IMG/VR virus record: IMGVR_UViG_3300033145_002134
Location: 1-39,772 of that record
DNA: 39,772 bases
Direction: 5' to 3' (one strand)
Source of the DNA: a virus
This document shows positions 4,653 through 34,042 of the stretch, piece after piece. Both the position numbers and the translations under genes were made by a program. Each line of letters opens with the position of its first letter. The first letter of the stretch is position 1. The notes under the pieces are model-generated. The model was given only the letters and a program-made list of their open reading frames with translations, was not told where the DNA came from and made no database searches.

Positions 4653-5086
4653 GGAAGTCCCGTTTCCTCAATTTTTATTTTATACTCCCAATGTGCGGTC
4701 AACTCAACCTCCTTCAGTTCAAGGATTCTAACTTGAACTGCAAGGTCAGTGTAGCCCTGGAAAGCCAGCACATCATGGTCCTGGTAATAAGCTCGCATTA
4801 TTGCCATGTTCGCATCCCTAGTTGCACCTTCAAAAATTCCCTTGACTTCGTAAACTGTCGAATCGCTGCCAAGATACTGGCGCTTGGAGTTTTTTGAGCC
4901 CAAGATTGAATGCTTTGCAGTCCGCTTGTAATACTTCGGCTTTATGCCGTCAAAATCTACAATAAGCGTAAGGGCTTCGAGAGTTATTTCTCCAGCTAGC
5001 TGCAGGATAGCATCAGCTGCAAAGGTCTTCGTTCTTCCGTCCTGAACTAGGACAGCATCCATTGAAAATGTTTTAGTCAGCGCCAT
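4649..5086 (-). CDS. Small tail protein carrying two KTFxADAIL repeats at its N-terminus
   Basis: 145 residues. Residues 3-30 hold two copies of the KTFSMDAVL/KTFAADAIL repeat that also builds the large proteins at 14384-17113 and 17444-18337. The rest (about 33-145) is a compact domain with a WEYKIKIEE end, resembling distal-tail or gpU-like connector proteins placed between tape measure and hub. The shared repeat suggests it is the docking point that places repeat proteins on the tail, or that the module is a general stalk. The family call is tentative; the repeats are plain in the sequence. Confidence 0.6.
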   Translation of the reverse strand: MALTKTFSMDAVLVQDGRTKTFAADAILQLAGEITLEALTLIVDFDGIKPKYYKRTAKHSILGSKNSKRQYLGSDSTVYEVKGIFEGATRDANMAIMRAYYQDHDVLAFQGYTDLAVQVRILELKEVELTAHWEYKIKIEETGLP

Positions 5087-8370: not shown

Positions 8371-9720
8371 TTAGTAGACCTCCGTTCCTTCGACCATCAT
8401 AACCACGCAGCTTGTTATGTTTATCTCAAGGTCCTGCACAACTAGGTCATCCAATGGTGCGTCATCGTCTGCTTTATCGTATGTGCATTCACTGAAAATA
8501 AATTGAATGCGCTCGTACTCTGGCTTTTTCAGCGTGTGCTTGATTGTGAAGGTTCCGATTGTATCTTGTGGCTCTGTTGCATTTGCTACTCCATATTGCC
8601 TTTCGATTTCTTCCTTATCAAGCAAGTCAATCTTCGCTGTTGATTTGTAGGTTCTCACTCCAGGCACTAATTTCTTGATGTACCTGCCGTCTGTTCCCTT
8701 AGCTTTATAGTTGTTATTTATTGAAAAGCTAAAGTCGTTCAGGTCGTAGTCTGTTCCACCTGCTACTTCAAGCTCAGTGTCCCATTCCAGGTACATTGCC
8801 CCTGTGAAATCTGTGATTGAGGAAGCTGTTGCTCCGCTCACGTTTGTCTGAGGTTTCTTTCCAATCATGTTCGCAATGAATCTGATTGGATCGGTCTGTT
8901 CTCTGGCCACTGAATAGGTCAGCTCGTTTATTTTACAGCCCAGCCAGTATTTGATTATGTCATCTGCTGCTGTTCCTTCTGGGTTAATGTAAGTGTCCTC
9001 AACTGAAAGACCATAGTTTGAGCTACCGTGAATCAGCTTTGTTTCCTTTGCCCAGAAAATTGTTTTTACATCTGTCGTGTAGATTGCTGTTACTGCTGCA
9101 CCAACCCAAACAAGTGCAATTGCAAGCTCATCTGTTGGCACGCTCGCCCAATCTGGCACTGGGTTTGCTGCTGCTGTTCCTGCTGTTACTGTTTCCTCTG
9201 TTGTTGCAGCATTGTCCTTGATTGAAACTACGTCCACTCTGTCCAAAGATGCATGTGCTGCACTGATTGTGATGTCTGTGATTTCGGTCGTTGTATAATT
9301 TGAGGATGCTATGTCATAGCTTCCTGCTGCTGCAAGCGTCAAAGTCATGTTCGGGCTTCCTGCCTCTACAAGGTTGCATGCTGTTACAACTTCGTTTGCA
9401 TCGCTTGCTGCTACTGGCGTAGCTGAACCATCGCCCATTGCACCTTTCTTTAGTTCTCCAAAAACGTACTGCAAAAACAATCCGTTCTGTGGGCTGTACT
9501 CAACAGGCCCAGCGACCTTTACTCTTCCTGCTACTTTCTTCCCGACATTCCTGCCGCTTGATTTACTCCTGTGCTGAATTACGGGAGCAGCAGCTTTTAT
9601 TCCGCAGCTTATTACCTTCCCAAAGGGCAGGTTCACGGCCGCAGATAATGTTCCGTAGGCTGTTTCCTCAACACCATAACTGGTTTGAGAAGACCAACCT
9701 GAATAATCTCTTTGCGTCAT
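8371..9720 (-). CDS. Major tail (tube) protein
   Basis: 449 residues, beta-rich, with a central Thr/Ala/Ser-rich insertion (about 100-215) that resembles an extra domain displayed on the tube surface, and C-terminal strands (about 330-449) typical of tail-tube folds. It lies between the tail-terminator/connector genes and the tail-assembly chaperone, exactly where the major tail protein is expected. The start ATG 9720 overlaps the previous stop (TAATG) and follows GGGAGGGG, a very strong ribosome site suited to an abundant protein. The assignment is mainly from order, length and composition. Confidence 0.72.
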   Translation of the reverse strand: MTQRDYSGWSSQTSYGVEETAYGTLSAAVNLPFGKVISCGIKAAAPVIQHRSKSSGRNVGKKVAGRVKVAGPVEYSPQNGLFLQYVFGELKKGAMGDGSATPVAASDANEVVTACNLVEAGSPNMTLTLAAAGSYDIASSNYTTTEITDITISAAHASLDRVDVVSIKDNAATTEETVTAGTAAANPVPDWASVPTDELAIALVWVGAAVTAIYTTDVKTIFWAKETKLIHGSSNYGLSVEDTYINPEGTAADDIIKYWLGCKINELTYSVAREQTDPIRFIANMIGKKPQTNVSGATASSITDFTGAMYLEWDTELEVAGGTDYDLNDFSFSINNNYKAKGTDGRYIKKLVPGVRTYKSTAKIDLLDKEEIERQYGVANATEPQDTIGTFTIKHTLKKPEYERIQFIFSECTYDKADDDAPLDDLVVQDLEINITSCVVMMVEGTEVY

Positions 9721-11640: not shown

Positions 11641-12477
11641 TTATATCCCCGTTATTGAAATCAATGCGTTTGCCTCGTACACTGCTGGCACACTTCTCAG
11701 GAATGTGTTGAAGCTGTAACTCTGATTAGAGAGCACATAGTCCTCTTCCACATCTAAATCCTCTGCAACAATCAGCTCTGCAATGTCTGCACCTGATTGC
11801 ATCAGCAATCCTGTTCCTGTAGCAATGTTCCTGTCAACTCTTACTGTTATTCCGAGCTTTTGAATTTTCTCGAGCTCAGTTAGGTCAGTGTTTGCAGCCC
11901 TTTGGTAGGTCTCCAAATATTGGTCCTTGTGCAACAGTAAATCTGTCGGCTCAAATTCATCGCCCATTGCAAGCATGGCCCCCATTATTGCTAATGGAAT
12001 GTTTGCAACAGTTGCCCATGTAGCTCCCCCGAAGGTTCCACCTACACTAGCATACAGGCCGCTGACTCCTGAGAGCGCGTTCTGGAGAATGATTGTTTCA
12101 TTCTCTTTATTCTGTGTCAGCCTACTTGCTCTCCGAGCCATAACAGTATTCAAAGCTTCGCCGTACTCTCTACTTGAGAGCAGGTCTTCCCTTGCAATAT
12201 TGAAAGACACACCGTGCTTCAATACTGGGATAAGTTCCCTTGCCTTGTCTATTGCCATTCCTGGAAAGTTTGTGGCTTTCGCAACAACGTCTGCAGCTCC
12301 TACGTCTGTCAGAGTATCAAAGCCGAACTCTTGCCTGCCGATTGAAACCTTTCTTACGGGGCACACTTGCCTTCCAGCAAGGTTCACGTATTTAGGCTCA
12401 ATGACAGCCGAGCGTACTTCTCTAAACTCTTCAGTTGAAAGAGATGCATCGTTCAAAATTTGGTTTAATTGTCTCAT
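11641..12477 (-). CDS. Major capsid protein (HK97 fold, encapsulin-like family)
   Basis: 278 residues from ATG 12477 (ATGA overlap with the decoration gene). It opens with MRQLNQILND and shows an HK97-type order: an N-terminal arm, a long helix with many Arg/Lys (NTVMARRASRLTQNKENETI), a Gly-rich E-loop/A-domain zone, the DLLLHKDQYLETYQR helix, and a C-terminal strand ending NALISITGI. Length and pattern resemble the short HK97-fold capsids related to encapsulins. Placement after protease, scaffold and decoration genes is diagnostic. A hairpin follows the gene. Confidence 0.82.
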   Translation of the reverse strand: MRQLNQILNDASLSTEEFREVRSAVIEPKYVNLAGRQVCPVRKVSIGRQEFGFDTLTDVGAADVVAKATNFPGMAIDKARELIPVLKHGVSFNIAREDLLSSREYGEALNTVMARRASRLTQNKENETIILQNALSGVSGLYASVGGTFGGATWATVANIPLAIMGAMLAMGDEFEPTDLLLHKDQYLETYQRAANTDLTELEKIQKLGITVRVDRNIATGTGLLMQSGADIAELIVAEDLDVEEDYVLSNQSYSFNTFLRSVPAVYEANALISITGI

Positions 12478-12896
12478 ATGATGAGCACCTTCCCCCAAGC
12501 TGTAGATGCAATTATTGTATGTGCAATTCCTACAACCTTGTAGCTTGTTGCTGAACCAACTGTGAGTGGTTCAACTATTCCTGCTGCAGCACAACTTACA
12601 TGTCCGCCTTCTGCGACACCTGTAGTTGAGTACATGGCGTAAATTTTACCAGGCACCAAAGCTGCAACGGTTACAACATCGTTGTCCGCATACTCTGCAG
12701 TTCCAGATTTCGCATAAATTTTCTCGTCCGGTACAGCAATTCCCTGCACGAATGCAGTGTCAGCTGCAGTTAACTTTACATCGTTTGCTGCTGTTCCTTT
12801 TTCCACAAGTTTTCCGAAGCCAATGGCTCCATCAGCTTTCCTTGTGAAGGTCGGTACAACAAATGATGGATTGAAATCATATACTCTATCCGCCAT
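12474..12896 (-). CDS. Head decoration protein (gpD/DUF2190-like)
   Basis: 140 residues, beta-rich, Ala/Val/Gly-heavy and with few charged residues: repeated short strands (FGKLVEKGTAANDVKL, VQGIAVPDEKIYAK, VTVAALVPGKIYAM, VVGIAHTIIASTAWGKVLI). This is the usual look of head-stabilising decoration proteins that sit beside the capsid gene. The ATG at 12896 follows AAGGTG and abuts the scaffold stop (TAAATG). Confidence 0.7.
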   Translation of the reverse strand: MADRVYDFNPSFVVPTFTRKADGAIGFGKLVEKGTAANDVKLTAADTAFVQGIAVPDEKIYAKSGTAEYADNDVVTVAALVPGKIYAMYSTTGVAEGGHVSCAAAGIVEPLTVGSATSYKVVGIAHTIIASTAWGKVLII

Positions 12897-13548: not shown

Positions 13549-14214
13549 TTAGAATGCGTTGAGGCCCACACCGTCTGCAGTGCCTGCGCGGCCTTGCATT
13601 ATCAAGGCTAAGTGGTCAAAGAAGAAATTCTCCTGGCGAATGTCATAATGCTGTCCGTTGAATTCCCCCGGCACGTGCACTTCCTTACATCTGAATCCTG
13701 TGCTCACATCCTCTAAGCGCTTTGCTTTTGTGTCCTTAATTAGCTGTTTGTTTTTTTCATTCTTTTTAATGAACACGTCCCCATAAGAACGCTTTCCTTT
13801 TTTGTCCCACTTAACAGAATCAAAAACAATATGGCCTACTTGCTGGCCCATGCTTGTAACTACTTTCTCCGGAGGATGCACGTATGCTGTTATAGGTTTG
13901 CCCCTTAAAGAATCCAGTGCTTTCTTCAGTTCCTCAGCCGACTTGTAGTGCTTGCCATTGTCGTACGGTAGCACTCCTTCCTTTGTGAAAACAACATCAT
14001 GGAAAGTAACGCCCTTCTCTGATTCAGTCCAGGCGTCGCCTTCAATGGCATCGCCTTTTGTTCCAATAGAATCAGTATGATCTATAAGTTTTTTTCCTGC
14101 GCCTTGCTCTTCAAGTTTTTTAATCAAAGCCTTATCTGCCAGGGCCCTGTCATTCTTTTTTGCCTGAGCTTTCAGTTTGCCAAACAAAGCCAGGTCGCTT
14201 AAAGAATCATTCAT
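13549..14214 (-). CDS. Head maturation protease (DUF2213-like)
   Basis: 221 residues. After a Lys-rich N-terminus (about 1-45) come the hallmarks of the DUF2213 phage family: GVLPYDNGKHY, LRGKPITAYVHPPE (about 102-115), a QQVGHIVFDSVKW strand, DVSTGFRCKEVHVPGEFNGQHYDIRQ and the terminal DHLALIMQGRAG. These are thought to be prohead proteases related to the HK97 group, which trim scaffold and capsid during maturation; the conserved His and Ser positions fit but were not verified by alignment. ATG 14214 has no strong ribosome site; promoter P3 would start its transcript only about 10 bases upstream, so a near-leaderless messenger is likely. Confidence 0.8.
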   Translation of the reverse strand: MNDSLSDLALFGKLKAQAKKNDRALADKALIKKLEEQGAGKKLIDHTDSIGTKGDAIEGDAWTESEKGVTFHDVVFTKEGVLPYDNGKHYKSAEELKKALDSLRGKPITAYVHPPEKVVTSMGQQVGHIVFDSVKWDKKGKRSYGDVFIKKNEKNKQLIKDTKAKRLEDVSTGFRCKEVHVPGEFNGQHYDIRQENFFFDHLALIMQGRAGTADGVGLNAF

Positions 14215-14340: not shown

Positions 14341-14388
14341 GCTCTTACCTTCCACAAACTCCTTATTATACTTTATTCTTTTTTTAAG
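14341..14388 (-). promoter_or_regulatory. Late-type promoter element, copy P4
   Basis: Minus strand: seven A, AATAAAGTATAATAAGGAG, then GAAGGTAAGAG, matching P3 outside the core. It overlaps the stop codon of the giant repeat protein (14384-14386) and lies about 120 bases upstream of P3, so the protease gene appears to have tandem promoters. The 169-base gap 14215-14383 otherwise holds only weak short ORFs. Confidence 0.55.
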
Positions 14389-17113
14389 AAATAAACGCCT
14401 CGAGAGAGTCTTTTCTAGTTTTTACTGTAAGATTATCCTTCCTAGTTGCCACGTCCAGGGAATCCTTTCTCGTTGTAACCTCTACTTGTTCCTTTCGGAG
14501 AAAAACATCCAATTGGTATATGGCAAGCGGCGCATAAAGAATTGCATCCCCAGTAAATGTTTTGTATGCTCTGCCTGTCAGTACAGCATCAATTGAGAAT
14601 GTTTTTGTAACTACTATCCGCAGCATAGCATCGAGTGTAAAGGTCTTTGTTGCCTGCAGCATTATCCAGGCATCAGCAGTGAAAGCCTTTATTGTTGTCA
14701 GCTGCAGTATAGCGTTAATCTCAAAGGTTTTCAGGCTCACCGACCTTAGTACGGCATCCGCGCTGAATGTTTTGGTAACAACTATACTTAGTATAGCGTC
14801 TGCAGTAAAGGCCTTGCTCCCTACCTGCATTAAAATGGCATCAGCCTGGAATGTTTTTGTTTCCTGCTTTCTGAGGAAAGCGTCCGCAGTAAAAGCCTTT
14901 GTGAACACTGCTCGCAAGTATGCGTCTGCCTGGAATGTTTTCGAATATGTCCCTTGCAGTAATGCATTTGCAGTAAATGATTTGGAGTAACTTATTCTGA
15001 GTAATACATCTGCAGTAAAGGCTTTTGTCAGCCTGTCAACAACTACCGCATCTGCTATGAATGTTTTCGTTTCTGTTGCTTGTAACCAGGCATCGGCACT
15101 GAATGTTTTGCTGTACCTATTTACCAAAATACCGTCAGCCAAGAATGTTTTTGTTTGCACGGCTTGCAGCACTGCATCTGCTTCGAATGTTTTCGTGTAC
15201 GTTCCTTTTAGAATTGCGTTGATTGAAAAGTTTTTAGCGTCTGCCGCTTCCAGGATTGCGTCCATGGAAAAACTTTTTGTAAGGCCGCTTGCTTTCAGGA
15301 TTGCATTTGCTTCGAAAGTTTTGGTGAGCCGTTCAACAACTACAGCATCAGCCTCGAATACTTTTGTAAATGTGGCTAGGAGAATTGCGTCCGCTTCAAA
15401 TTCTTTGGTTCCAACTATCTGCAATGTAGCATCTGCACTGAAGGTCTTTGTCAGGTCAGAGGCTTTCAAGAAAGCATCTGCGATGAATGTTTTTGTTGCG
15501 GTCCCGAACAGTATTGCATCAGCTGAAAATGCTTTAGTAAACACCGCTCGCAAGTGAGCATCTACTGTGAATGTTTTCGTGAGCCTATTTATTAAGATAG
15601 CGTCAGCCTCAAAGGTCTTGCTGAATGTGGCCTGCAGCACAGCGTCAACATCAAATGTTTTAGTCAACCTGTCAACAAGTACAGCATCGGCCTCAAAGGT
15701 TTTGGTTGCTGTTGAAACCAGGAATGCGTCCGCTGAAAATGTTTTTGTCAAGCCCTGTGCCTGCAAGTATGCATCCACTATAAAAGTTTTTGTAAGCCGA
15801 TTTATCAGGAGTGCATCGGCTGTGAAGGTCTTGGTTACTACAGGGGATATGAGTATTGCATCTGCTGCAAAGGTTTTAGTCAGGCCAGATTGTTTCAATA
15901 ATGCATCTGCCTCGAATGACTTAGAATAGGTCCCCTTGAGAATTGCATCAGCTGTAAAATATTTAAAATTTGTACCAACCCATGCATCCATTGTGAAAGT
16001 CTTCGTCAGGCCAGAAGCTTTTAGTATAGCATCTGCTGTGAATGTTTTTGCGTATCTTCCTAATTCATCAAATTTAACAGCTATATCTGTCCAAGTGGCA
16101 GAAGAAGACCAATCAGTACCACTATTTGCTGATTCGGTATAAGTACAGGTGGCTCCGCCGTATGTTTCATTAACATATACTGCACTATTTACAGTAGCCA
16201 TGGCCGATACTCTCCAACAATTAGAACTATCTACAGAATTTGGAGATTTAAGGACTATTCTGTACTGACTTCCATTTGCAAAAGTTATAGGAGAACTAAA
16301 AGATGCGTACGTCCAGTGGTAGCTTGTAGATTCAGATGTTCCTGCCGGAGCTATTTCTCCACTATCTATAACATCTTCGGCATCCGGGCCTCTAATTTCA
16401 TATTGTAATGCACCTGCCGGAGTTCCTTGTCTTCTTATAATAATTTCTAATCCTCTAACGGTTTGCGCCCCGGCGATTGTAATTAATTCTCCTTTCCAAT
16501 ATGCTCCATAACAGTTTTCAGTGTAGCCATAAGTGTAAGGCTGGCCTTCATACGTTGCATCATCATACTCAATGATAAATACTCCTGAGCCACTAGTACC
16601 GCCCCAATCAGCACCGCTGTTAGTTGATTGTTTAAATTCTAAACTCGAATCAACATAATTAGAATCATTATCTGCTTGGTTTCTTGGAGTGCCAATAACG
16701 GGTGCGGTGTAAATACCTCTCGATAAGTGTGCATGATTACTTCCGTCTATTGTTCCGCTTTGATACTGAATTCTGATTGCATAAGTAACTCCAGCAGTTA
16801 AATCGACTGTTTCTCCTAAAGTGAAAGTATTCCATGCTCCATCTGCAATTTGTTGGTCTACATATCCGGAGTTAGTTGCCCCAAGCCAGGTGCCATCCGG
16901 CTCATCCGAACCATCAACTGCTTGTAATCCAATTCTATAAGTCGGACTTGTTCCTGTAACTGTGTTTGAATCTATGCGAATAGCTGAAACAGTTTTTGTG
17001 TTTTGAGCCGTGAATATTATGGCTATTTGGTCGGTAGCAGCATCTAATGGAATTGATGCTACAGTATAATTCAATGCAGATTCATGTCCAAAAAGATAAT
17101 TACTTGTTCCCAT
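14384..17113 (-). CDS. Giant virion-surface protein with about 36 KTFxADAIL repeats
   Basis: 909 residues. Residues about 1-350 form two beta-rich (jelly-roll/carbohydrate-binding-like) domains, the second starting near residue 180; both end in similar SNSGxDW...F/I stretches. Residues about 354-862 are a near-continuous array of about 36 repeats, mostly 14 residues long (xTKTFxADAxLxxx, variants with 13 or 15). The last 47 residues switch to a basic tail with three TRKDSL/TRKDNL units. No catalytic motif is seen. It most likely forms a long fibre or surface stalk with an N-terminal binding head. GAGG precedes ATG 17113. Near relatives in the window: 17444-18337 and the N-terminus of 4649-5086. 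Confidence 0.7.
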   Translation of the reverse strand: MGTSNYLFGHESALNYTVASIPLDAATDQIAIIFTAQNTKTVSAIRIDSNTVTGTSPTYRIGLQAVDGSDEPDGTWLGATNSGYVDQQIADGAWNTFTLGETVDLTAGVTYAIRIQYQSGTIDGSNHAHLSRGIYTAPVIGTPRNQADNDSNYVDSSLEFKQSTNSGADWGGTSGSGVFIIEYDDATYEGQPYTYGYTENCYGAYWKGELITIAGAQTVRGLEIIIRRQGTPAGALQYEIRGPDAEDVIDSGEIAPAGTSESTSYHWTYASFSSPITFANGSQYRIVLKSPNSVDSSNCWRVSAMATVNSAVYVNETYGGATCTYTESANSGTDWSSSATWTDIAVKFDELGRYAKTFTADAILKASGLTKTFTMDAWVGTNFKYFTADAILKGTYSKSFEADALLKQSGLTKTFAADAILISPVVTKTFTADALLINRLTKTFIVDAYLQAQGLTKTFSADAFLVSTATKTFEADAVLVDRLTKTFDVDAVLQATFSKTFEADAILINRLTKTFTVDAHLRAVFTKAFSADAILFGTATKTFIADAFLKASDLTKTFSADATLQIVGTKEFEADAILLATFTKVFEADAVVVERLTKTFEANAILKASGLTKSFSMDAILEAADAKNFSINAILKGTYTKTFEADAVLQAVQTKTFLADGILVNRYSKTFSADAWLQATETKTFIADAVVVDRLTKAFTADVLLRISYSKSFTANALLQGTYSKTFQADAYLRAVFTKAFTADAFLRKQETKTFQADAILMQVGSKAFTADAILSIVVTKTFSADAVLRSVSLKTFEINAILQLTTIKAFTADAWIMLQATKTFTLDAMLRIVVTKTFSIDAVLTGRAYKTFTGDAILYAPLAIYQLDVFLRKEQVEVTTRKDSLDVATRKDNLTVKTRKDSLEAFIS
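14528..16054 (-). repeat. Array of about 36 coding repeats, period about 42 bp
   Basis: Each unit encodes [L/A/F/Y]-T-K-[T/A/S]-F-x-[A/V/I/M]-[D/N]-A-x-[L/V] plus 3-4 variable residues. The conserved positions alternate hydrophobic and small residues, as in beta-strand solenoids. Codon choice varies strongly between units, so the array is old or diversified rather than a recent tandem expansion. Units ending in VNR, VDR or INR are always followed by L/Y/R-[TS]-K, hinting at a higher-order pattern. Confidence 0.85.
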
Positions 17114-17115
17114 AA

Positions 17116-17355
17116 TTATACCTCTTTAGAATATGCGTTCCACAATTTCGAATCTTCTGCTTTTGTCATTTGAGATTTCAATTCATCCAATAATGAATCT
17201 ATCCATTTTTCCACATTAGTCTGATTAAAACTCGATGAATCAAAATGGTTAAATTTTGAAAACACATCAAAACTTTCTCCAGCTGAAGGAGCAAATTCAA
17301 CTTCAATATGTATTCCATTTTCATCCCAATTAACTTTTTTTAGTGTTGCTATCAT
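17116..17355 (-). CDS. Small protein between the two repeat-protein genes
   Basis: 79 residues from ATG 17355, preceded by AGGAGG. It has an N-terminal beta-like part (LKKVNWDENGIHIEVEFAPS), then an aromatic/Asn-rich stretch (FDVFSKFNHFDSSSFNQTN) and a C-terminal helix (KWIDSLLDELKSQMTKAEDSK). Its position between two fibre genes suggests a fibre chaperone or small virion protein. A similar small gene (18410-18580) lies upstream of the other repeat protein. No family recognised. Confidence 0.65.
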   Translation of the reverse strand: MIATLKKVNWDENGIHIEVEFAPSAGESFDVFSKFNHFDSSSFNQTNVEKWIDSLLDELKSQMTKAEDSKLWNAYSKEV

Positions 17356-17402
17356 CCTTCCCAACCTCCTGGTCTGTTTCTTTCTTTGCTAAAATCTTTC
17401 AT
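17352..17402 (-). CDS. Micro-ORF with strong ribosome site (16 aa)
   Basis: ATG 17402 is preceded by GGAGGGATTTGA; the ORF MKDFSKERNRPGGWEG ends at a TGA that overlaps the next start (ATGA at 17355-17352). It may be a real peptide or a translational-coupling leader for the 79-residue protein. Confidence 0.35.
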   Translation of the reverse strand: MKDFSKERNRPGGWEG

Positions 17403-17444
17403 TCAAATCCCTCCAGATATTTTTTTATAAATCTTCATACGCAT
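17403..17444 (-). CDS. Micro-ORF coupled to the repeat protein stop (13 aa)
   Basis: ATG 17444 lies in a TGATG overlap with the stop of the second repeat protein, with GGGAG upstream. It encodes MRMKIYKKISGGI and stops directly before the next micro-ORF start at 17402. Probably a coupling leader rather than a functional protein. Confidence 0.3.
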   Translation of the reverse strand: MRMKIYKKISGGI

Positions 17445-18337
17445 CACGCTCTCCCTCTTAGCTCAGCCTCAATATTTGGATTCCTAAGTTGTACAATCAT
17501 GTGGTACCTTGCCATTGGCACATAGAGAATCGAATCGGCTGAAAATGTTTTTATTAAATTACCTGTCAACACTGCATCCAAAACAAAGGTCTTTGTCCCA
17601 ACTAATCTTAGAACCGCATCCGCTGTAAAGGTTTTTGTTAATACCAGGACAACCCAGGCATCTGCAATAAATGTTTTTGTCTGTGTTGCTTTCAGAATTG
17701 CATTTGCCCCGAAGGTTTTCGTTGCTATTAACCTCAATACAGCGTCCACACTGAATGTTTTTGTTTCAGTTTTCCTAAGCACTGCATCTGCAGTGAACGC
17801 CTTAATATATGTTCCTTTCAGGATTGCGTTCACTGAAAAAGTCTTCGCCGTTACAGCAGTCAATATCGCATCAGCAGAAAATGTTTTTGTAATTCCAGAT
17901 TCCTTCAAATAGGCGTCCGCAGAAAATGTTTTTGTGAGCCTGTTAACTAATACACTATCCGCAATGAATGTTTTGGTATTTACTGCTGAAACCAGTATTG
18001 CATCAATCGCAAAGGTTTTTGTTTCCGTGGCCTTCAGTATTGCATCAACTGAAAAGGTTTTAGTTTGGCCCAAGGCTTGCAGGAAAGCGTCAGCTTCAAA
18101 CGCCTTAGTGAATTCCTTCCTCAAGAAAGCATCCGCTGTGAATGTTTTTGTAAGCCGATTCACTAGGACAGCATCAGCTTCCAGAGCCTTCGTTGATGTT
18201 GCCTTCAGTATGGCGTCAGCTGTAAAAGTTTTTGTTCTCCTGTTTATCAGAATAGCGTCCGCTGTGAATTCATTATAAATTACGCCATAGTACGATTGCC
18301 CGTACCTTCCAGTTCCATACAGTGCTGATTCTGCCAT
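17444..18337 (-). CDS. Second KTFxADAIL repeat protein (about 18 repeats)
   Basis: 297 residues from ATG 18337, chosen for the GAGGATGAGG ribosome site. A short N-terminus rich in Gly/Tyr (MAESALYGTGRYGQSYYGV) leads directly into about 18 repeats (residues about 22-274). The last repeats and exit sequence (DAVLTGNLIKTFSADSILYVP, then a short basic end) match the corresponding part of the 909-residue protein, so the two are paralogues that share a C-terminal plan, but this one lacks the N-terminal binding domains. It may be a short stalk, an alternative fibre or a donor for repeat exchange. Confidence 0.7.
   Translation of the reverse strand: MAESALYGTGRYGQSYYGVIYNEFTADAILINRRTKTFTADAILKATSTKALEADAVLVNRLTKTFTADAFLRKEFTKAFEADAFLQALGQTKTFSVDAILKATETKTFAIDAILVSAVNTKTFIADSVLVNRLTKTFSADAYLKESGITKTFSADAILTAVTAKTFSVNAILKGTYIKAFTADAVLRKTETKTFSVDAVLRLIATKTFGANAILKATQTKTFIADAWVVLVLTKTFTADAVLRLVGTKTFVLDAVLTGNLIKTFSADSILYVPMARYHMIVQLRNPNIEAELRGRA
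17516..18274 (-). repeat. Array of about 18 coding repeats, period about 42 bp
   Basis: Same 14-residue unit as the array at 14528-16054. Units such as KTFTADAILKA, KTFSVNAILKGTY and LTKTFTADAFLRK recur in both arrays, which points to exchange or duplication between the two genes. Confidence 0.85.
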
Positions 18338-18590: not shown

Positions 18591-19259
18591 TCAGTCGTTG
18601 TAAATAAAAGGCCAGTAACTTCCTCTCGCTATTTTTATGTAATCTAAATGCACTTCTGTTTCAGGGGGGCTTGCCGGATAATTCCAAGGTCCAATTTGCG
18701 TAAGTCCATTATAGATAGTATTTGGGTCTGCAGAATCTCCGGCTCCGTCATAAACCCAATCAGCACCATCGTCTTTTGAAAAAAAGGAAAAGGAATTCTG
18801 CCTAAATAGAATTCTGATGGTCCACCAGCTTACATTGTCGAATGTTTTGTCGAATTGCTTTACATAAGCATTGGTTGAATCGAAGTACCAGACGCTGTCT
18901 TCTGAAATTGCGACCGTATGCCTGTAGGTTCCTTGATATACGGATAAAAGAAAACAGTCCAATGTACCGACTGTTCCATCAAATCCGCCAGCCAGCTTGT
19001 CGAATTTAATTTTAAATTCAACAGTAATGTTAGGACTACGCTGAAATGCTCCTGCAAAATTTTGAAGAACAGCTGCGCTGTTTGTTCCGCCTGAATCTCC
19101 TGCAACCAGATGAGCTTGACCAGCTGGGTCTATTTCTATTGTTGCAGTTCCTAATGGGTTTTGTGTCCATCCGGTTAAATCATCAAAATCATCATCAATG
19201 CTTAAGAATCTCAAATCATCTACCTCGTGCGTAAATCCTAGAGTTTTTCGAACTGCCAT
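18591..19259 (-). CDS. Lectin-like (concanavalin-A-type) surface protein, paralogue 3
   Basis: 222 residues from ATG 19259 (AGGTG upstream). It shares with the next two genes the blocks DPAGQAHLVAGDSGGT, FKIKFDKLAGG, SEDSVWYFDSTNAYVKQFD, DNVSWWTIRI, FFSKDDGADWVYDG and ETEVHLDYIKIARG. These are alternating strands of a jelly-roll with Asp/Asn/Trp loops, the usual look of LamG/concanavalin-like sugar-binding modules. It likely contributes to host receptor binding; the catalytic residues of a glycosidase are not evident. Confidence 0.65.
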   Translation of the reverse strand: MAVRKTLGFTHEVDDLRFLSIDDDFDDLTGWTQNPLGTATIEIDPAGQAHLVAGDSGGTNSAAVLQNFAGAFQRSPNITVEFKIKFDKLAGGFDGTVGTLDCFLLSVYQGTYRHTVAISEDSVWYFDSTNAYVKQFDKTFDNVSWWTIRILFRQNSFSFFSKDDGADWVYDGAGDSADPNTIYNGLTQIGPWNYPASPPETEVHLDYIKIARGSYWPFIYND

Positions 19260-19267
19260 AACATCAC

Positions 19268-19936
19268 CTAAATATCCCAATCAATCGGATAGTATTCTCC
19301 TGCAGCTATTTTAAAATAATCAATATGCACTTCCGTTTCAGCTGGGCTTGCTGGATAGTTTTGAGCTATCAGCTGAATCAATCCAGGAAATCCTGCATTT
19401 GGATCTCCATCATCGCAAGAGCCCCAATAAGCCCAATCTCCATCATCATCTTTTATAAAAAGGATTATTGATTTCGCAAAATGAATAAGCCTTATTGTGT
19501 ACCACGAAACATTATCCAAAGAAGCAGTAAATTGCTGGACATAACCATTCGTAGAATCATAAAACCACACGCTATCATCAGAAATCAGAACATAATTCAC
19601 ATGGACTCCTGTCAAAATACCTATTAAAAAACAGTCCAATGTAGCGGTAGTTCCATTATAACCTCCAGCTAATTGGTCAAACTTAATTTTAATTTCCGTT
19701 GTAAAAGATGAAAGGTATTGTTGAAAAATATTGCTTCTATATGCTCTTGCGGTGCTGTCAGTTCCGCCTGCATTTCCGGCTTTTAAATGAAGCTGGCCAG
19801 CTGGACTTATCTCTCGCAATGAAGTTCCTATTCCGTCAAGTACCCAGCTTGCAGTATCATCCCAAGGCTCGTCGATGTGCAAATACCGTATATCGTGAAT
19901 GTCCTGCAACCGAGCTAATTCTTTGTACTCACTCAT
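19268..19936 (-). CDS. Lectin-like surface protein, paralogue 2
   Basis: 222 residues. It has the same block order as its neighbours (SPAGQLHLKAGNAGGT, IKIKFDQLAGG, SDDSVWFYDSTNGYVQQF, DNVSWYTIRLI, KDDDGDWAYWG, ETEVHIDYFKIAAG). It differs most in loops between blocks, as expected for binding surfaces under selection. The ATG at 19936 overlaps the stop of paralogue 1 (ATGA). Confidence 0.65.
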   Translation of the reverse strand: MSEYKELARLQDIHDIRYLHIDEPWDDTASWVLDGIGTSLREISPAGQLHLKAGNAGGTDSTARAYRSNIFQQYLSSFTTEIKIKFDQLAGGYNGTTATLDCFLIGILTGVHVNYVLISDDSVWFYDSTNGYVQQFTASLDNVSWYTIRLIHFAKSIILFIKDDDGDWAYWGSCDDGDPNAGFPGLIQLIAQNYPASPAETEVHIDYFKIAAGEYYPIDWDI

Positions 19937-20586
19937 GGCATAATCATCCCCGGTGCGAACTTCACATAGTCCATGTGAATTTCTGTTTCAGCAGGACTTG
20001 TTGGGTAATTAATTACCCACATTAAAATTCTTCCATTAAGTATGGTATATGGGTCTGCGTTTCTACAACGACCTAAAAAGTTCCAGTCAGCGTCATCATC
20101 TTTAGCAAAAACTAAGGTAAAATTCGAATCAAAAATCAACCTGATGGTGTACCATGAAACATTGTCGAAAGTGGTGTCGAACTGTTTTACATGGACATTT
20201 CCAGCAGTGTAGTACCATACGCTGTCAGAAGTAAAGGTAACCACATGCATATATACTCCTGAATAATGTCTAAATTGGAAGAAATCGTTTGTCGCACCGG
20301 GAGTCCCAGTCCATCCTCCAGCTAACTGGTCGAATTTAATTTTGAATTCTACAGTCATTGTTTGGAGATTTGTCACTAAGCTATCAAGATACTTACCGCC
20401 AGTACTGTCTGTTCCACCTGCATCTCCAGCTACCAGATGCAATTGTCCAGCTGGGCTTTCTTCAACAGTGCGTGTTCCTGTGCCGTAAGTTGTCCAATCA
20501 GTAATATCTTCCCAATCTTCATCCTTTATGAGATTTCGGGTATCTACTATATCAGAATAATGAGCCCTTCCTTTGTACGCAGTCAT
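19933..20586 (-). CDS. Lectin-like surface protein, paralogue 1
   Basis: 217 residues from ATG 20586 (GAGG seven bases upstream; an alternative ATG at 20592 overlaps the previous stop). Blocks SPAGQLHLVAGDAGGT, FKIKFDQLAGG, SDSVWYYTAGNVHVKQFD, DNVSWYTIRLI and ETEIHMDYVKFAPG align with paralogues 2 and 3. Tandem triplication of a binding module directly after a fibre-like gene suggests a receptor-binding repertoire or a hetero-oligomeric tip. Confidence 0.65.
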   Translation of the reverse strand: MTAYKGRAHYSDIVDTRNLIKDEDWEDITDWTTYGTGTRTVEESPAGQLHLVAGDAGGTDSTGGKYLDSLVTNLQTMTVEFKIKFDQLAGGWTGTPGATNDFFQFRHYSGVYMHVVTFTSDSVWYYTAGNVHVKQFDTTFDNVSWYTIRLIFDSNFTLVFAKDDDADWNFLGRCRNADPYTILNGRILMWVINYPTSPAETEIHMDYVKFAPGMIMP

Positions 20587-20588
20587 AA

Positions 20589-20915
20589 TCATTCCTCAAC
20601 ACAAACATAGAGCCTTCCTTCATCAACTTGGTACACTACTTTTCCAAGAACAGGAGTAAGCGCATCTCTCGCTGTTGCATCTGCCACATTATGCACCACT
20701 AAATCTTTTGCTTGATTGCCTTGAAATTCAGCATCAGCATTTACTGTTAGAATCTCACAATCAACATTCCTTGAGGAATCAATAACCTCGGTTCCCTGAA
20801 TCTCAAGTGAAAGAGTATTCAGTTTGTGTGTGCCATCGTGAATGTAGTCATTGATATCATTCTGCCGTGCTGCAGTTATTAGGTCCCCATTCGAAACATC
20901 TGCCAAGTCTGCCAT
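20589..20915 (-). CDS. Tail-fibre/baseplate-like protein
   Basis: 108 residues beginning MADLADVSNGDLITAARQNDINDYI, a pattern common at the N-terminus of phage fibre and baseplate-wedge proteins, followed by repeated short strands (SLEIQGTEVIDSSRNVDCEILTVNADAEFQG) that look like a beta-helix fibre, and a C-terminal DALTPVLGKVVYQVDEGRLYVCVEE cap typical of fibre tips. AAGGTGGG precedes ATG 20915. It probably forms a stalk or base for the lectin-like proteins that follow. Confidence 0.6.
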   Translation of the reverse strand: MADLADVSNGDLITAARQNDINDYIHDGTHKLNTLSLEIQGTEVIDSSRNVDCEILTVNADAEFQGNQAKDLVVHNVADATARDALTPVLGKVVYQVDEGRLYVCVEE

Positions 20916-21094
20916 TACTTCCCACCTTCCTTATTTTTCCACTTTAAATAATCCGCAAGGTCGCCCCCTCCAATACTAATCTTTCGGATATTGGAAAACC
21001 AAGCAAAAACATCTTCTCTTTTAATTCCAGGCATGTCTTTAAGGAATAATTCTGCCTGCGCACTGAAATAAATTTCTACTTCTCTCCTAGTCAC
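20915..21094 (-). CDS. Small hypothetical protein (59 aa)
   Basis: Starts at GTG 21094, supported by GGTG upstream and an overlap with the preceding stop; longer in-frame starts at 21106 and 21130 are possible. The product is helical with several aromatic residues (EIYFSAQAELFLKDMPGIKREDVFAWF) and a conserved-looking DLADYLKWKNK end. It lies between a conserved virion-associated protein and the fibre gene. No family recognised. Confidence 0.55.
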   Translation of the reverse strand: MTRREVEIYFSAQAELFLKDMPGIKREDVFAWFSNIRKISIGGGDLADYLKWKNKEGGK

Positions 21095-21644
21095 TTTTAT
21101 CACCATCCTTTTTCTTAACCAAAATTGCATCAGCAGCTGCTTGAGTATTATCTCTTTTCACAATTACTGCCCCTACAGAAAAATGCTGCTCGTCATAGCA
21201 TTTCGTTTCTGCCGGAATAGGATTCCCAATCGCATTGTAAGGAGCCTCCCTCCATATGCCTGAAAGCTCAACGTGCCCGTCCTCAAAAACGTAAGCTATA
21301 TCCTGCACGCTCCGGCCGCCAATGGTTGCCTGCCATCCAACTAGATAAATAATTGACCTGCCAATAGGCTTAGCTTTAATATCTCTGGCCCCTCCACCAA
21401 ATTTGTATTTCTCCAGGACTCTACGCCTGTAAATTAGTCTTCGACCTGGCTCCAGGTACATTTTGAAAAGAAGCTGATCCGGCACCGCTTTCGGTTGAAT
21501 AATTCCGGCTTTCCTTATTTCAAAAGCAGAAAGCTTACTCCGGTCAATGTCCGGGTACTTGTTTTCTTTTCCATCTTCCTCGTATTGAGATAATTCTTTG
21601 CCGTCATTATAAACAGCCTTCCAGTAAATGCTTGAGTGCATCAT
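21087..21644 (-). CDS. Conserved virion-associated protein of unknown function
   Basis: 185 residues from ATG 21644, in an ATGA overlap with the endonuclease stop and after GGAGGAG. It opens with an IYWKAVYNDGKELSQYEEDGKENKYPDIDRSKLSAFEI segment, a beta-rich domain (RLIYRRRVLEK, SIIYLVGWQATIGG, DIAYVFEDGHVELSG) and a hydrophilic end with one degenerate ADAILVKK unit reminiscent of the repeat proteins. The first segment recalls proteins found in varied phages and archaeal elements, but no function could be named. Confidence 0.55.
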   Translation of the reverse strand: MMHSSIYWKAVYNDGKELSQYEEDGKENKYPDIDRSKLSAFEIRKAGIIQPKAVPDQLLFKMYLEPGRRLIYRRRVLEKYKFGGGARDIKAKPIGRSIIYLVGWQATIGGRSVQDIAYVFEDGHVELSGIWREAPYNAIGNPIPAETKCYDEQHFSVGAVIVKRDNTQAAADAILVKKKDGDKSD

Positions 21645-22021
21645 TCTCTCCTCCGTAATGTTTCCGAGAATTTCTGAGCAGTTTCTTTCTTCAGAACAAG
21701 TTCTGGCAAAATCCATTCAGTAAATCTTAAGCAATCATAGAAAGAACGAAGCGTCCAACAGTACTGTGGACTCCAGTGTTTTTTCCAGCTCTTTTGTCGC
21801 CCTCTTCTCTGCAAAGAGCCGCCTAAATTAGAAACAATATAATCCAGGACGAATTTGTCCCTTTCAACTAAAGCAATCCTGATAAAAGGGCTTACTCTTT
21901 TCCTATCTTCAACATAGAAATTGCCTTCACCATCAATCATTCCGGCAAGCCAGCATTTAAATTTCTCGCTTACTTGGAAATTAAGTCTGCATTCTTTTCT
22001 GTTTGTTTTATTGGAGTCCAT
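21641..22021 (-). CDS. LAGLIDADG homing endonuclease (single-motif)
   Basis: 126 residues with one LAGMIDGEGNF motif at 25-35, the helix and acidic residues of the LAGLIDADG family, so it should act as a homodimer that cuts a long DNA site. The following FYVED and IRIALVERDKFVLDYIVSNLGG parts fit the DNA-binding saddle. It is free-standing: genes on both sides have intact frames, and it is chained to the next gene by ATGA. GGAGGAGG lies about 11 bases upstream of ATG 22021. It could mobilise itself and flanking fibre genes between related viruses. Confidence 0.85.
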   Translation of the reverse strand: MDSNKTNRKECRLNFQVSEKFKCWLAGMIDGEGNFYVEDRKRVSPFIRIALVERDKFVLDYIVSNLGGSLQRRGRQKSWKKHWSPQYCWTLRSFYDCLRFTEWILPELVLKKETAQKFSETLRRRE

Positions 22022-22051: not shown

Positions 22052-22618
22052 TTATATTTCGTCGTACTGGAATGTGATTGTTTCGTCAGCCAAGTTTCCT
22101 GGGCTGGCTGTACTTCCCACAACCATCTGCAGCACAACATAGTCTGTTGTTTCGCCAATCGCATTGATTATTGTTCCTGCTTCCGAAATTGTACATGTCC
22201 TTGGAGCTCCGCTCGTGTAGGAAAACAAATCGGTTACAGCTGCAACATCAGTGTGGTTGGTCATTATTTCGTTTGCGTCAGAAACATCGTAGCCTGTGTC
22301 TGCTCCGCTGTTCTTGACCTGTACTCCATCGCCAACATTTACGGTGATTCCTGTTCCGAAACCTCCGCCGTCAGTGTACAGCTTTACGTTGTCCACCTGA
22401 GTATCTGGCGCTGTTGCACAGTAAAGATAGACTTGCTTCCATCGGCTGTACTCTGAACCTGCTGCCGGAATTGGCATTGGATCAACTGCATCGATTGTTG
22501 CATCGTCTTCTTGCTTGAACCTGATATTAGGGGGCCCAAGCCCGTCCGTGTTCTGCTCCGTTCCTGGAGTGTTGTCTGTTCCTCCAAAATCGAAGTTCAC
22601 ATTAAATACTGCTGCCAT
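22052..22618 (-). CDS. Probable structural protein, beta-rich
   Basis: 188 residues, low in charge and rich in Thr/Gly/Asp/Val: blocks such as FNVNFDFGGTDNTPGTEQNTDGLGPPNIRFKQ, WKQVYLYCATAPDTQVDNVKLYTDGGGFGTG, and a C-terminal DYVVLQMVVGSTASPGNL strand that resembles a virion jelly-roll. It follows the BppU-like gene and precedes the homing endonuclease; GGAGG is upstream of ATG 22618. A head-fibre or tail accessory role is likely but unproven. Confidence 0.6.
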   Translation of the reverse strand: MAAVFNVNFDFGGTDNTPGTEQNTDGLGPPNIRFKQEDDATIDAVDPMPIPAAGSEYSRWKQVYLYCATAPDTQVDNVKLYTDGGGFGTGITVNVGDGVQVKNSGADTGYDVSDANEIMTNHTDVAAVTDLFSYTSGAPRTCTISEAGTIINAIGETTDYVVLQMVVGSTASPGNLADETITFQYDEI

Positions 22619-22640: not shown

Positions 22641-22964
22641 TTATGGCAAATCTTTCACTACGCGGATATCGAATCTCTTAGTAGTGATTATTTTTCCGCC
22701 TGAATATGTTATCTGTAATTCAGCATGATAGAGCCCGATTGTTATGAGCTCGCCGTTCTGCACCGTGTACTTGCAGGTTCCGTCCACTGCGGAAACAACC
22801 GAGCAAGTCACATCCAAATCTAGTACAGTTCCTCCAATAATTGCGCTCCTTAATTTTATTTCTGTAACATTCGTGAGGTTAACTACTACTCTAGCATAGT
22901 CATAGACTGTGAAGTTAATATCGTAAAGCTCATCGTTCTGAACTACTTCAAGAACTTCAACCAT
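22641..22964 (-). CDS. BppU-like/Ig-like baseplate or fibre-attachment protein
   Basis: 107 residues in a two-sheet Ig-like pattern: LYDINFTVYDYARVVVNLTNVTEIKLRSAII, then CKYTVQNGELITIGLYHAELQITYSGGKIITTKRFDIRV. The GLYHAELQIT...GKIITT end is close to the N-terminal domain of BppU-type baseplate proteins, which anchor receptor-binding proteins. It begins directly after the portal stop (GGAGGG, then TAAATG). Its place next to the portal rather than the tail tip is noteworthy. Confidence 0.55.
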   Translation of the reverse strand: MVEVLEVVQNDELYDINFTVYDYARVVVNLTNVTEIKLRSAIIGGTVLDLDVTCSVVSAVDGTCKYTVQNGELITIGLYHAELQITYSGGKIITTKRFDIRVVKDLP

Positions 22965-24956
22965 TTAGCTCCCTCCGAAATATGCTACAATTGTGCATCT
23001 GCAATTTGGATCTTCCAATTCTGGCGGCGTGTTGTTCAGGTCAAAAATGTGGCCGTTCAAGAACGCATGTGTTGGCCGCACCGCAGTGTCGCCAGCAGAA
23101 AGGTATTTTACTCTTTTCACTTTGCCCGAATCCCTGTAAGATTGTTTAATGGCTTGCGTCATTGCTCTGTGGGATTCCGTTCTCGCGAGAGTATCGGCAT
23201 TATGTTTTGCCCCATCAACAATGAGCTGAATTTTCTTTCGCATTTGTGGAATGCCCTCTCCAGCTAACATGCTTTCCTGGACTGCAAAAAGAGTTCTCTT
23301 TGTAACGTCTGTTCCATAAGAATTTACAAAAACGTAATTCGATTGCCTTAATATTTTCTTAATCTGGCCTGCCTTCTCGCTGGCTATTATGTTTAAGTTC
23401 AAAAGTAATTCAGACCTTTCCCATCCATACTGCCAAGAAGCGTTCACATTCTTATCCACAACATCCTTGATTTTCTTGGCTCTGGCTTTCTCAATGAGTT
23501 CAAGCTCTCTCTCCAAATCCCCAAAGTCATCGGTGAGAATTCCCTCAACCTCGCTAGCCTTTATTACTTTCATTATTTCATTAATTGAAAACAATGCTTT
23601 CAAATCCTGTGCATAGTCCTCGCCTAATTGAATAACCTCTGAGGCTACTAGATTGGTTTCCTCAGAATATTCCCAATCAGGGAACAATGCATCCACTTTA
23701 GCATCTGTTTTGGCCTCTTGCTCTAATTCTTTTTTTATCTCCTCAGGATTCCATACTCCGGATGTAATACGAATCGATTCTGTTTCCGCTGTAAGCTTGT
23801 CAATCTCTGCCTGTTCCTTTGCGTTCATTTCCTGCAACGGGTTCCATTCAACTTTATAGTCGCCATCAGCTACTTGCTTCGTTCCTTGAAGAATTGTAAT
23901 CAGCTGTTCAATGACTGGCGTAAAATCGAGTTCCTGCTTTGCGGAAATATCAGAATAATAATCTTTGAGGTTTGTTTCGCTTCCGGTAACTGCCCCTGCT
24001 GCAACGCCCTCTACAATCTGCATGGGAATATCAAAACTCATGGCCACTGCTTTCAGCGCAACATTCCAATACTGTTCTGGATTCAGTGCGCTTTTTCTCA
24101 CGCCCACGTCTTTTATTTCAGTTGTTTCATCGCTTACCCAGGCTGTCTTGGAATTTGTTTCCGCTGCCTGTGCCTTTATTGCTTTCATTGCAGCAGGCTT
24201 TCCTTTCTTTTTTATATAGTGAATGAAGCCAGCAGCGTTTCTATAGAATGCCTGGCCCGTGCTCCAAATAACATTATCCAAAACAACTAGGTAATTGTAA
24301 GCTGGCCGCATATAGCCAATGCCTTCTGGATCGTTCCCGTACTGGTTAACCGGCATATAAATGAATCTGCTTGCATGCACCTCAATTGCGGGCCCTGTTC
24401 CTAGCTTCACCATTGCGCCAACTATCTCGCCATAGTGTTCAGAGTTGCTATCCTTCTCAATAAGCAGTTTTCTTACATTGGTTCTTGTAATAATGCTCAA
24501 GTAATCCAAGCTCTTCGGATTCTCAATTTCTTCCTCAAGGCCTGCCTCATCGCTGTAACCCAACATGAGCAAGGCATAGCCCTCAACCATTCCAACCTTA
24601 TATGTTTCCTTTAAAATTTTCTTCAAGCCCAGAGCCCGTGTTTCGCCTTCAGTTATCCATTTCTTTTTTGAAGAAAATACTTTGCTTACGTCTTCAATTA
24701 GTGTTTCATTCTCTGATTCAATAGTGAACCAATTATCGAAAGTGTCAGCGGCAATTTTGTTAACAAGCTTTCTGCCAATCCCGTTTCCCCTGTACGCATC
24801 TACAAGCTGCTCGTTTAAAATATTAGTATTCCAAAGCGTACTCTTACTAGCCGCATCTGAAGCCTTGCTTGATTTGGCATCAGGATTATATTCTGGAATA
24901 AGTCTATCTACAAGAATCCGCTTGCCAGTATTGATTGCATCGTTGAACAGGGACAT
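22965..24956 (-). CDS. Portal protein fused to a MuF-like head morphogenesis domain
   Basis: 663 residues from ATG 24956 (GAGG seven bases upstream, promoter P1 further up). Residues about 1-420 form a DUF1073-type portal: LVDAYRGNGIGRKLVNKIAADTFDNWF, then a crown with MPVNQYGNDPEGIGYMRP and FDIPMQIVEGVAAGAVTGSETNLKDYYSDI. The C-terminal part (about 510-663) has the Mu gpF pattern: RTESHRAMTQAIKQSYRDSGKVKRVKYLSAGD...RPTHAFLNGHIF...PNCRCTIVAYF, with CRC as a metal-like Cys pair. The dodecameric portal is the DNA gate and motor dock; the MuF part may help capsid assembly or be ejected. Fusion of both in one gene is known in some phages. Confidence 0.85.
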   Translation of the reverse strand: MSLFNDAINTGKRILVDRLIPEYNPDAKSSKASDAASKSTLWNTNILNEQLVDAYRGNGIGRKLVNKIAADTFDNWFTIESENETLIEDVSKVFSSKKKWITEGETRALGLKKILKETYKVGMVEGYALLMLGYSDEAGLEEEIENPKSLDYLSIITRTNVRKLLIEKDSNSEHYGEIVGAMVKLGTGPAIEVHASRFIYMPVNQYGNDPEGIGYMRPAYNYLVVLDNVIWSTGQAFYRNAAGFIHYIKKKGKPAAMKAIKAQAAETNSKTAWVSDETTEIKDVGVRKSALNPEQYWNVALKAVAMSFDIPMQIVEGVAAGAVTGSETNLKDYYSDISAKQELDFTPVIEQLITILQGTKQVADGDYKVEWNPLQEMNAKEQAEIDKLTAETESIRITSGVWNPEEIKKELEQEAKTDAKVDALFPDWEYSEETNLVASEVIQLGEDYAQDLKALFSINEIMKVIKASEVEGILTDDFGDLERELELIEKARAKKIKDVVDKNVNASWQYGWERSELLLNLNIIASEKAGQIKKILRQSNYVFVNSYGTDVTKRTLFAVQESMLAGEGIPQMRKKIQLIVDGAKHNADTLARTESHRAMTQAIKQSYRDSGKVKRVKYLSAGDTAVRPTHAFLNGHIFDLNNTPPELEDPNCRCTIVAYFGGS

Positions 24957-24982
24957 AAAATTTCCTCGCGAGAAACTAACTG

Positions 24983-25028
24983 CCCTCATCTATGGCAATC
25001 CCCTTAATATAGTTTATGCTTTTTTTAA
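24983..25028 (-). promoter_or_regulatory. Late-type promoter element, copy P1 (portal operon)
   Basis: Minus strand: seven A, AAACTATATTAAGG, then GATTG and ATAGATGAGGGCAG, almost identical to P2. It fills the 101-base gap between the terminase stop (25058) and the portal start (24956), giving a predicted leader of about 28 bases with GAGG. One of the clearest cases that this element is a promoter, because it lies in a real gap and ahead of a gene with its own ribosome site. Confidence 0.68.
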
Positions 25029-26438: not shown

Positions 26439-26876
26439 TTACTTTTTATCTTGCTCCTCTCGCTCTTTTTTAAGAATCTCCTGGGCCTTAACCACAGTCA
26501 ACTCTCCTGAAAGTTCCACTCTTTTAGGTGCCTCTTCAAGAACACCAAGAGACTGAAGAATCCTAATCTTTGCCTCCTCATGTTTTTGCATCAAATTCAA
26601 GGCCCCGATTTTCACATTATCATTACTTGTATCCCTGTACGTCTTCCTAGCATCCCGGTATATACCATCGTACCGCATTAGAAACTCAAACAAAACTTTA
26701 TCAAGCGGCTTTTTCGCCAGCTCACCTATAATTTCTTCCCTTAGCTTTTGCCTGTCCCTCTCAACAGTGCGAACAGGAACTTGTAATGTCCTAGCTATCT
26801 CTTTTGTGTAAAGGCCCTCAAGCACTAATGTCTTTACTTTCTCTCGCCTTTCTTCAATTTTCTTTTTGTTCGACAT
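26439..26876 (-). CDS. Terminase small subunit (TerS)
   Basis: 145 residues: a basic start, a helix-turn-helix (YTKEIARTLQVPVRTVERDRQKLREE, about 23-48), a long helical middle suited to ring oligomerisation, and a charged C-terminus (VKAQEILKKEREEQDKK). This architecture directly before TerL is that of a TerS, which recognises viral DNA and starts packaging. The ATG at 26876 follows GGAGGTG and overlaps the methyltransferase end by 23 bases. Confidence 0.75.
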   Translation of the reverse strand: MSNKKKIEERREKVKTLVLEGLYTKEIARTLQVPVRTVERDRQKLREEIIGELAKKPLDKVLFEFLMRYDGIYRDARKTYRDTSNDNVKIGALNLMQKHEEAKIRILQSLGVLEEAPKRVELSGELTVVKAQEILKKEREEQDKK

Positions 26877-31835: not shown

Positions 31836-32104
31836 TGCTTCGCCTCTAGTATTTTTTTAGCCAACTCAGGATTTTCTCCAATCCATAAAAAAAAACCTAC
31901 AATTTCACTTTTTTTCCATTCTATGAATTTAATGTTTTTTAAAATTTTTCCCAATTCTTTCAAACTATACCTTGTCGGCCCTTCAAGAACTTTTCCCAAT
32001 ACTTCATCTACTGCATTCATTGGCCCTTGCATTTTAGCATCCAATTGACGATTTATATTTTTCAAGTATTCTTTCATTTCTCTAACTTCTTTTTCTGACA
32101 TCAT
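31832..32104 (-). CDS. Small helical protein downstream of HerA-like ATPase (90 aa)
   Basis: ATG 32104 in a TAATG overlap; a second ATG lies three bases on. A helical protein (MKEYLKNINRQLDAKMQGP...TRYSLKELGKILKNIKFIEWKKSEIVGFFLWIGENPELAKKILEAKQ). Translational coupling to the ATPase suggests a partner, but no family was recognised. Confidence 0.6.
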   Translation of the reverse strand: MMSEKEVREMKEYLKNINRQLDAKMQGPMNAVDEVLGKVLEGPTRYSLKELGKILKNIKFIEWKKSEIVGFFLWIGENPELAKKILEAKQ

Positions 32105-33888: not shown

Positions 33889-33889
33889 T

Positions 33890-34042
33890 TTAATCCCCCT
33901 TTTTTGTTTCACATAATCGTTCCAGTTTTTCTTCTTCTTTCTTCAAACATTTATCGTGGAAAACTCCGCTAATGCCATTTCTCCCTACAAAATTCTGCAA
34001 TTCATTTTCTTTAAAAGTCAAACCGCAACCATCGCATTTCAT
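33890..34042 (-). CDS. Small zinc-finger-like protein (50 aa)
   Basis: ATG 34042 directly after the HAD stop (TAGATG), with GAAGAGG upstream. MKCDGCGLTFKENEL gives CxxC at 3-6, and FHDKCLKKEE a His and Cys near 29-32, a likely CCHC metal site, followed by a Lys/Glu helix. It precedes the ATPase by one base. Confidence 0.6.
   Translation of the reverse strand: MKCDGCGLTFKENELQNFVGRNGISGVFHDKCLKKEEEKLERLCETKKGD

Follow-up and report, generated by a model that had tools for sequence, protein, structure and literature searches.

A 14-residue repeat shared by putative fibre proteins and tail proteins of uncultured viruses

The window analysed here, a viral DNA stretch of 39,772 nucleotides (positions 1 to 39,772 of IMG/VR record IMGVR_UViG_3300033145_002134), encodes two proteins with long arrays of a 14-residue unit, and the same unit recurs in one or two copies on proteins of the virus tail. 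We consider it reasonably probable that the unit is an undescribed beta-strand repeat forming the shaft of tail-borne receptor-binding fibres, which are probably docked via the shared units. The unit family has no match in the libraries searched; its functional kind, the shaft of a virus fibre, is already known, and the sharing of a unit between fibre and tail proteins is unusual. Within this one virus, units are found in four proteins (36 + 18 + 2 + 2). All structural genes lie on the minus strand, and the array proteins are organized as follows.

14384-17113, minus strand: array protein 1, 909 residues, with an N-terminal globular region, 36 units and C-terminal 9-residue repeats
16049-17113, minus strand: residues 1-355 of array protein 1, forming its N-terminal globular region
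14522-16048, minus strand: the 36 KTFTADAIL-type units of array protein 1, spaced by 13-15 residues, from a position-specific scoring matrix (PSSM) scan
14387-14512, minus strand: second repeat of about five 9-residue units, LDVxxRKxx, at the C-terminus of array protein 1
17444-18337, minus strand: array protein 2, 297 residues (ATG at 18337), with 27 residues, 18 units and a short C-terminal tail
17510-18274, minus strand: the 18 units of array protein 2, from the PSSM scan

The consensus in the window is K-T-F-[TS]-A-D-A-[IV]-L, followed by five further residues, the last of which is mostly T. In the iterated PSSM scan, 28 of the 35 intervals between units of array protein 1 are exactly 14 residues long, six are 15 and one is 13, while array protein 2 shows 14 intervals of 14 and three of 15 residues. 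Both the approximate numbers of 36 and 18 units and the near-strict 14-residue register given in a preliminary description of this DNA are thereby borne out. None of the shuffled open reading frames (ORFs) passed the scan test used for the array proteins, and the exact two-unit DNA pattern occurs six times in the window, with 0.00 occurrences expected. From the first set of loci, 829 units were collected across 38 ORFs, at intervals of 14 (622), 15 (128) and 16 (14) residues. Positions K1, F3, D6, A7 and L9 are conserved, D6 being present in 93% and A7 in 75% of the 829 units, and positions 10-13 are variable. A diverged array is encoded at L082:13982-15298, where the units read KTFTSGGTL or KSFKNGGQL, with Gly-Gly in place of the Asp-Ala core.

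At the DNA level, units share a mean identity of only 0.52, and for this reason Tandem Repeats Finder did not detect the 42-base array in the window. Synonymous codons at the conserved positions differ between units about as often as random draws from the codon usage of the window (A7, 0.67 observed vs 0.66 expected; F3, 0.51 vs 0.50), and adjacent units are not more similar to each other than distant ones. As the codons have diverged to chance level, it is the protein pattern that is maintained; the repeats are old, in agreement with the selection on the protein proposed earlier. Long tandem protein repeats are a common cause of misassembly, which would speak for a low-complexity or assembly artefact, or else for recently duplicated DNA without selection. 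The low identity, the saturated codons and the silence of Tandem Repeats Finder, together with the presence of the same gene cassette in independent viruses, refute such an origin for practical purposes.

Searches of Pfam, PHROGs and NCBIfam gave no credible match for the unit, only scattered weak hits to unrelated families. For P0002 and for profile A2, no PDB chain was returned with the expectation value (E) allowed up to 10, and nothing relevant was found in the literature on the motif letters. The profile search suggested in the preliminary description thus yielded no known family, consistent with its statement that no named family fits. AlphaFold2 was run twice on monomers, once using 18 full arrays and once using 37 windows of ten units without gaps. 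Both runs predict one strand of 10-11 residues plus a short turn per unit, with predicted local distance difference test (pLDDT) values of 45 and 44, and we therefore do not claim a fold. Low model confidence is usual for obligate oligomeric fibres. Strands are predicted rather than coil, although the low pLDDT leaves disorder possible, and the earlier suggestion of a solenoid is unproven, as the two runs agree just on one strand per unit. Foldseek matches of the models in the PDB and a viral library (SufB/D, CsgA and FapC, at E 0.06 or worse for a model of pLDDT 45) were discounted.

Beyond the arrays, units were observed on a tail protein at the Dit position and on the cassette protein P0004, whose surroundings in the window are listed here.

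1749-4652, minus strand: tail hub, at the Tal position (PF24032, E 1.7e-7; phrog_400, E 5e-5)
4649-5086, minus strand: tail protein at the Dit position, between tape measure and hub, with two N-terminal units
4988-5074, minus strand: the two units of the Dit-position protein
5092-7635, minus strand: tape measure protein (PF10145, E 2e-22; phrog_991, E 1e-69)
8371-9720, minus strand: tail tube protein, without a unit (PF18906, E 2e-14)
21087-21644, minus strand: P0004, a conserved cassette protein
21117-21188, minus strand: C-terminal pair of degenerate units in P0004, at a spacing of 14 residues

The units of the 145-residue Dit-position protein start at residues 5 and 20 and score 23.6 and 28.0, with the 99.9th percentile of shuffled proteins at 11.0, which confirms the two N-terminal units described before. 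Among the homologues of this protein, whose bodies are 61-62% identical, G088 carries two units and G087 one. For P0004, a single degenerate unit had been proposed at the end of the protein; a unit is indeed present there, but it is one of two, scoring 8.0 and 4.1 (99th percentile of shuffled proteins, 6.3) and lying exactly 14 residues apart. Both recur in two homologues, with scores of 11.6/6.0 and 10.2/5.4 and profile E-values of 2.5e-5 and 1.7e-4. In locus L013, which has two tail-tube paralogues, one of them (PF18906, E 2.9e-14) bears a single unit at its end; no unit was found on the other tail-tube proteins, read at about half of the tube loci. The end of the window hub, KVYTLGAYLK (KVYTFGAYLK in one relative), resembles a unit and was not counted as one because of its low score.

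The arrays belong to a cassette of neighbouring genes, of which the window holds the following further members and neighbours.

22641-22964, minus strand: 107-residue protein with a BppU N-terminal domain (PF10651, E 1.5e-6, over the cut-off)
22052-22618, minus strand: P188, a 188-residue cassette protein, conserved on 41 IMG/VR loci by its own profile
18591-20592, minus strand: three tandem related proteins of ~220 residues, without units, lectin-like by eye only

The usual order of the cassette is P188, P0004, array; in the window, P188 is preceded by the BppU_N-domain protein, a candidate fibre anchor. The 41 loci were obtained with the P188 profile alone; in 30 an array ORF follows downstream, and in three more an array is present elsewhere on the record. 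Seven of the remaining eight are cut off by the contig end within ~2 kb, and one, a 57-kb record (L080), is truly without an array. P188 is 34-76% identical among array-bearing contigs, and their portal, terminase and capsid proteins are mostly far less alike or unrecognisable. The three ~220-residue proteins beside the arrays are possible alternative fibre heads; one of them was searched and had no Pfam or PHROGs match. An ORF for a LAGLIDADG endonuclease (21641-22021) overlaps the start of P0004, and a homologue lies beside P0004 in L057 and L055 as well.

Combining the tandem-unit pattern with the P188 profile, arrays were found on about 40 uncultured viral contigs. The two-unit DNA pattern occurs in 36 stretches in IMG/VR and in seven stretches in GTDB contigs. 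Among the latter, the PSSM scan confirms arrays in a Methanosarcinales bin (L045) and a Patescibacteria bin (L046); a Lachnospiraceae bin (L050), where the edge of the stretch holds two matches to the pattern, is unconfirmed, and the Bacteroidales-type matches failed the scan. No array was detected in 50,697 phage records (tblastn), in 72,556 plasmid records, in the other 53 genomes searched around the bin of the window or in 52 other genomes from the order of the Methanosarcinales bin, and P188 was found in 0 of 86 other genomes of the phylum. The window is the whole of contig C9; the small genome bin to which this contig belongs is marked as archaeal by its L32e ribosomal protein. The contig may be mis-binned, and the archaeal marker of the bin is no proof of the host of the virus. 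Elsewhere in the window, the major capsid protein (11641-12498) has a better match to Linocin_M18, of the encapsulin family (E 2e-13), than to Major_capside, the phage model. A DNA methylase with a fused ParB-like domain is encoded at 26854-28176 and a HerA-type ATPase at 32104-33912.

In most array proteins, the array is preceded by large globular domains, lectin-like or of other kinds. In the three relatives L033, L041 and L042 this domain matches Laminin_G_3 (E 1e-15 to 1e-18), a candidate carbohydrate-binding-like domain, and in others it has no assigned family; the window protein shows just a weak DUF4082 match at residues 32-145 of array protein 1 (E 8.9e-4), under the curated cut-off. 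The arrays of L030 and L027 are almost naked, like that of array protein 2. These naked arrays, and the mere 27 residues without a binding domain that precede the first unit of array protein 2, would fit an array that does the adhering, as a beta-structure that assembles by itself and binds host or surface polymers, with the N-terminal domains as accessories. The large N-terminal domains on most array proteins, and a conservation pattern that suits a structural element with exposed turns at positions 10-13, make this improbable.

A connection between an array and the tail is seen in L042. There the cassette is flanked by the end of the tape measure on one side and by the hub on the other. The array ORF, a laminin-G domain followed by eight units, runs on into 150-odd residues that, by eye only, look like the beginning of a hub; the ORF that overlaps it and comes next has a match to phrog_400, as does the window hub. 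The coding stretch from array to hub is split by a two-frame overlap at L042:7350-7353, which may reflect a sequencing error, a frameshift or two genes. The units on the Dit-position and tube proteins and this arrangement in L042 lead us to favour a placement on the tail. In keeping with a tail fibre, the virion structural block of the window holds the tail-anchor proteins, namely the BppU_N protein, tape measure, hub and tube.

Several observations weigh against a tail-fibre shaft. When the window-type hub was compared by profile with the fused stretch of L042, there was no support, so that the hub identity of this stretch rests on the next ORF and the reading by eye; comparing hubs with the C-terminus of L045 likewise gave no convincing score. 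Units on the Dit-position protein are found in three close relatives only and the unit on a tube protein in one record, and the units on tail proteins may be captured fragments without function. The low pLDDT weakens any model of fold and oligomer, be it a trimeric prism, a beta-roll or another fibre, and covariation between units at lags 1-6 showed nothing consistent with the register and no coupling of neighbours. Finally, the array genes of the window are located within the head block, with the portal (22965-24989) on one side and the protease (13549-14214) on the other. The main rival explanation therefore remains a head fibre, in which the arrays are stalks on the capsid or portal vertex; it also draws on L045, whose array is joined to a protein with a match (E 4e-29) to a PHROG annotated as minor head protein. 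We consider a head fibre fairly unlikely, given the units on the Dit-position and tail-tube proteins, the L042 array ORF that runs into the tail-hub gene, the adjoining BppU_N domain, and the cassettes of L061, L065 and L091, which come after tail-type genes.

A further possibility is that the array accompanies the tail tube along its length, with each ring matched by one 14-residue unit. The length of such a unit in extended form is close to the rise of a tube ring, and the tube protein of L013 bears a unit. The number of units is unrelated to the length of the tape measure (residues: units, 847: 36/18; 728: 28; 658: 46/8; 988: 41; 747: 15; 581: 29), which disfavours such a tail-length companion, as does the lack of a unit on the other tube proteins read; we regard it as very improbable.

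The C-terminal part of the arrays may indicate the polarity of the fibre. The 9-residue repeat that ends array protein 1 (LDVxLRKxS; period 9, p = 0.002, the floor with 500 shuffles), missed in the preliminary description, has counterparts (LDVxLRKxS, LTAxAKDxS and similar) at the ends of the array proteins of L012, L014, L009, L041 and L013. Moreover, the last ~7 units, with a DAW unit fourth from the end, match position by position between both window arrays and those of the relatives L012 and L014. Together with the L042 arrangement, the conserved last units and the 9-residue end repeat suggest that the C-terminus is the likely virion end of the array proteins.

For a tail fibre, each 14-residue unit would form one beta-strand and a short turn, and long runs of units the shaft. 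The far end of the shaft would carry the globular N-terminal domains (laminin-G among others in relatives) as its host-binding part, and the virion end the conserved last units, often followed by the 9-residue repeat. The BppU_N protein and P188 would form the constant base of the cassette. The one or two copies carried by the Dit-position protein, by P0004 and by the tube protein of another virus would then most likely add strands to the beta-structure of the fibre and so dock it. The units and their spread, the cassette, the order of domains, the run of an array gene into a hub gene and the units on tail proteins are observed; strand-to-strand docking, shaft geometry, oligomeric state and receptor binding are what we infer. 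The stalk with a dock on the tail, as first proposed, is thus the best reading of the globular N-terminal domains, the retained units at the Dit position, the L042 hub and the L013 tube, its docking step remaining conditional.

Known fibres offer partial parallels. The triple beta-spiral of adenovirus and reovirus is likewise a shaft of short beta-repeats, about 15-17 residues each, that bears a receptor-binding end. Its repeat has a Gly/Pro turn, which is absent here; there is also no PDB sequence match, and host and virus are unrelated. Functional amyloid repeats of the curli and Fap type, two-strand beta-solenoids, resemble the arrays as stacking strand-turn repeats, and the weak beta-helix hits of the models carry no weight. 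Closer in period is the YadA-type (Hep_Hag) left-handed beta-roll, an adhesin beta-structure with many copies of a 14-residue repeat, a 15-residue variant in UspA1 and a fully conserved Gly at position 8 (PMC9543794). The period is matched here, but no near-invariant Gly occurs at positions 1-10 of the 829 units, and by this glycine criterion (PMC9543794) the unit is not of the YadA type; nor does Hep_Hag figure among the 25 Pfam families that were listed for the 37 array segments. The beta-bracelet of Orsay virus CP-delta, a pentameric virus fibre shaft, is built of 8-residue repeats, (V/L)x2Vx4V, with a 5-residue strand and a 3-residue loop, and shares with the arrays strand and short-loop repeats with Glu/Asp/Asn (PMC7565637). 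It was ruled out by the period of 14-15 residues found here; there is no sequence relation. For the base, TP901-1 BppU binds the Dit ring, and T5 p132, of BppU_N fold, is a candidate anchor of side fibres (PMC7291167). Common to these systems and the window is a BppU_N-domain protein beside fibre genes; the virus described here differs in showing the repeat of the fibre on the Dit-position protein, a link that is inferred. No relative is known to us in which the Dit-position protein carries the repeat of the fibre.

Tentatively, the strand module may act as a shared docking code, by which shafts attach to any tail protein, be it the Dit-position protein, P0004 or the tube protein, that shows one or two copies, and exchange of the cassette would amount to exchange of the fibre. 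If the units on tail proteins do dock the shaft, this would provide a modular attachment rule for tail fibres. As the unit is not found in the searched libraries and yet recurs on about 40 contigs, it can be used as a simple marker to pick out likely receptor-binding fibres among uncultivable viruses.

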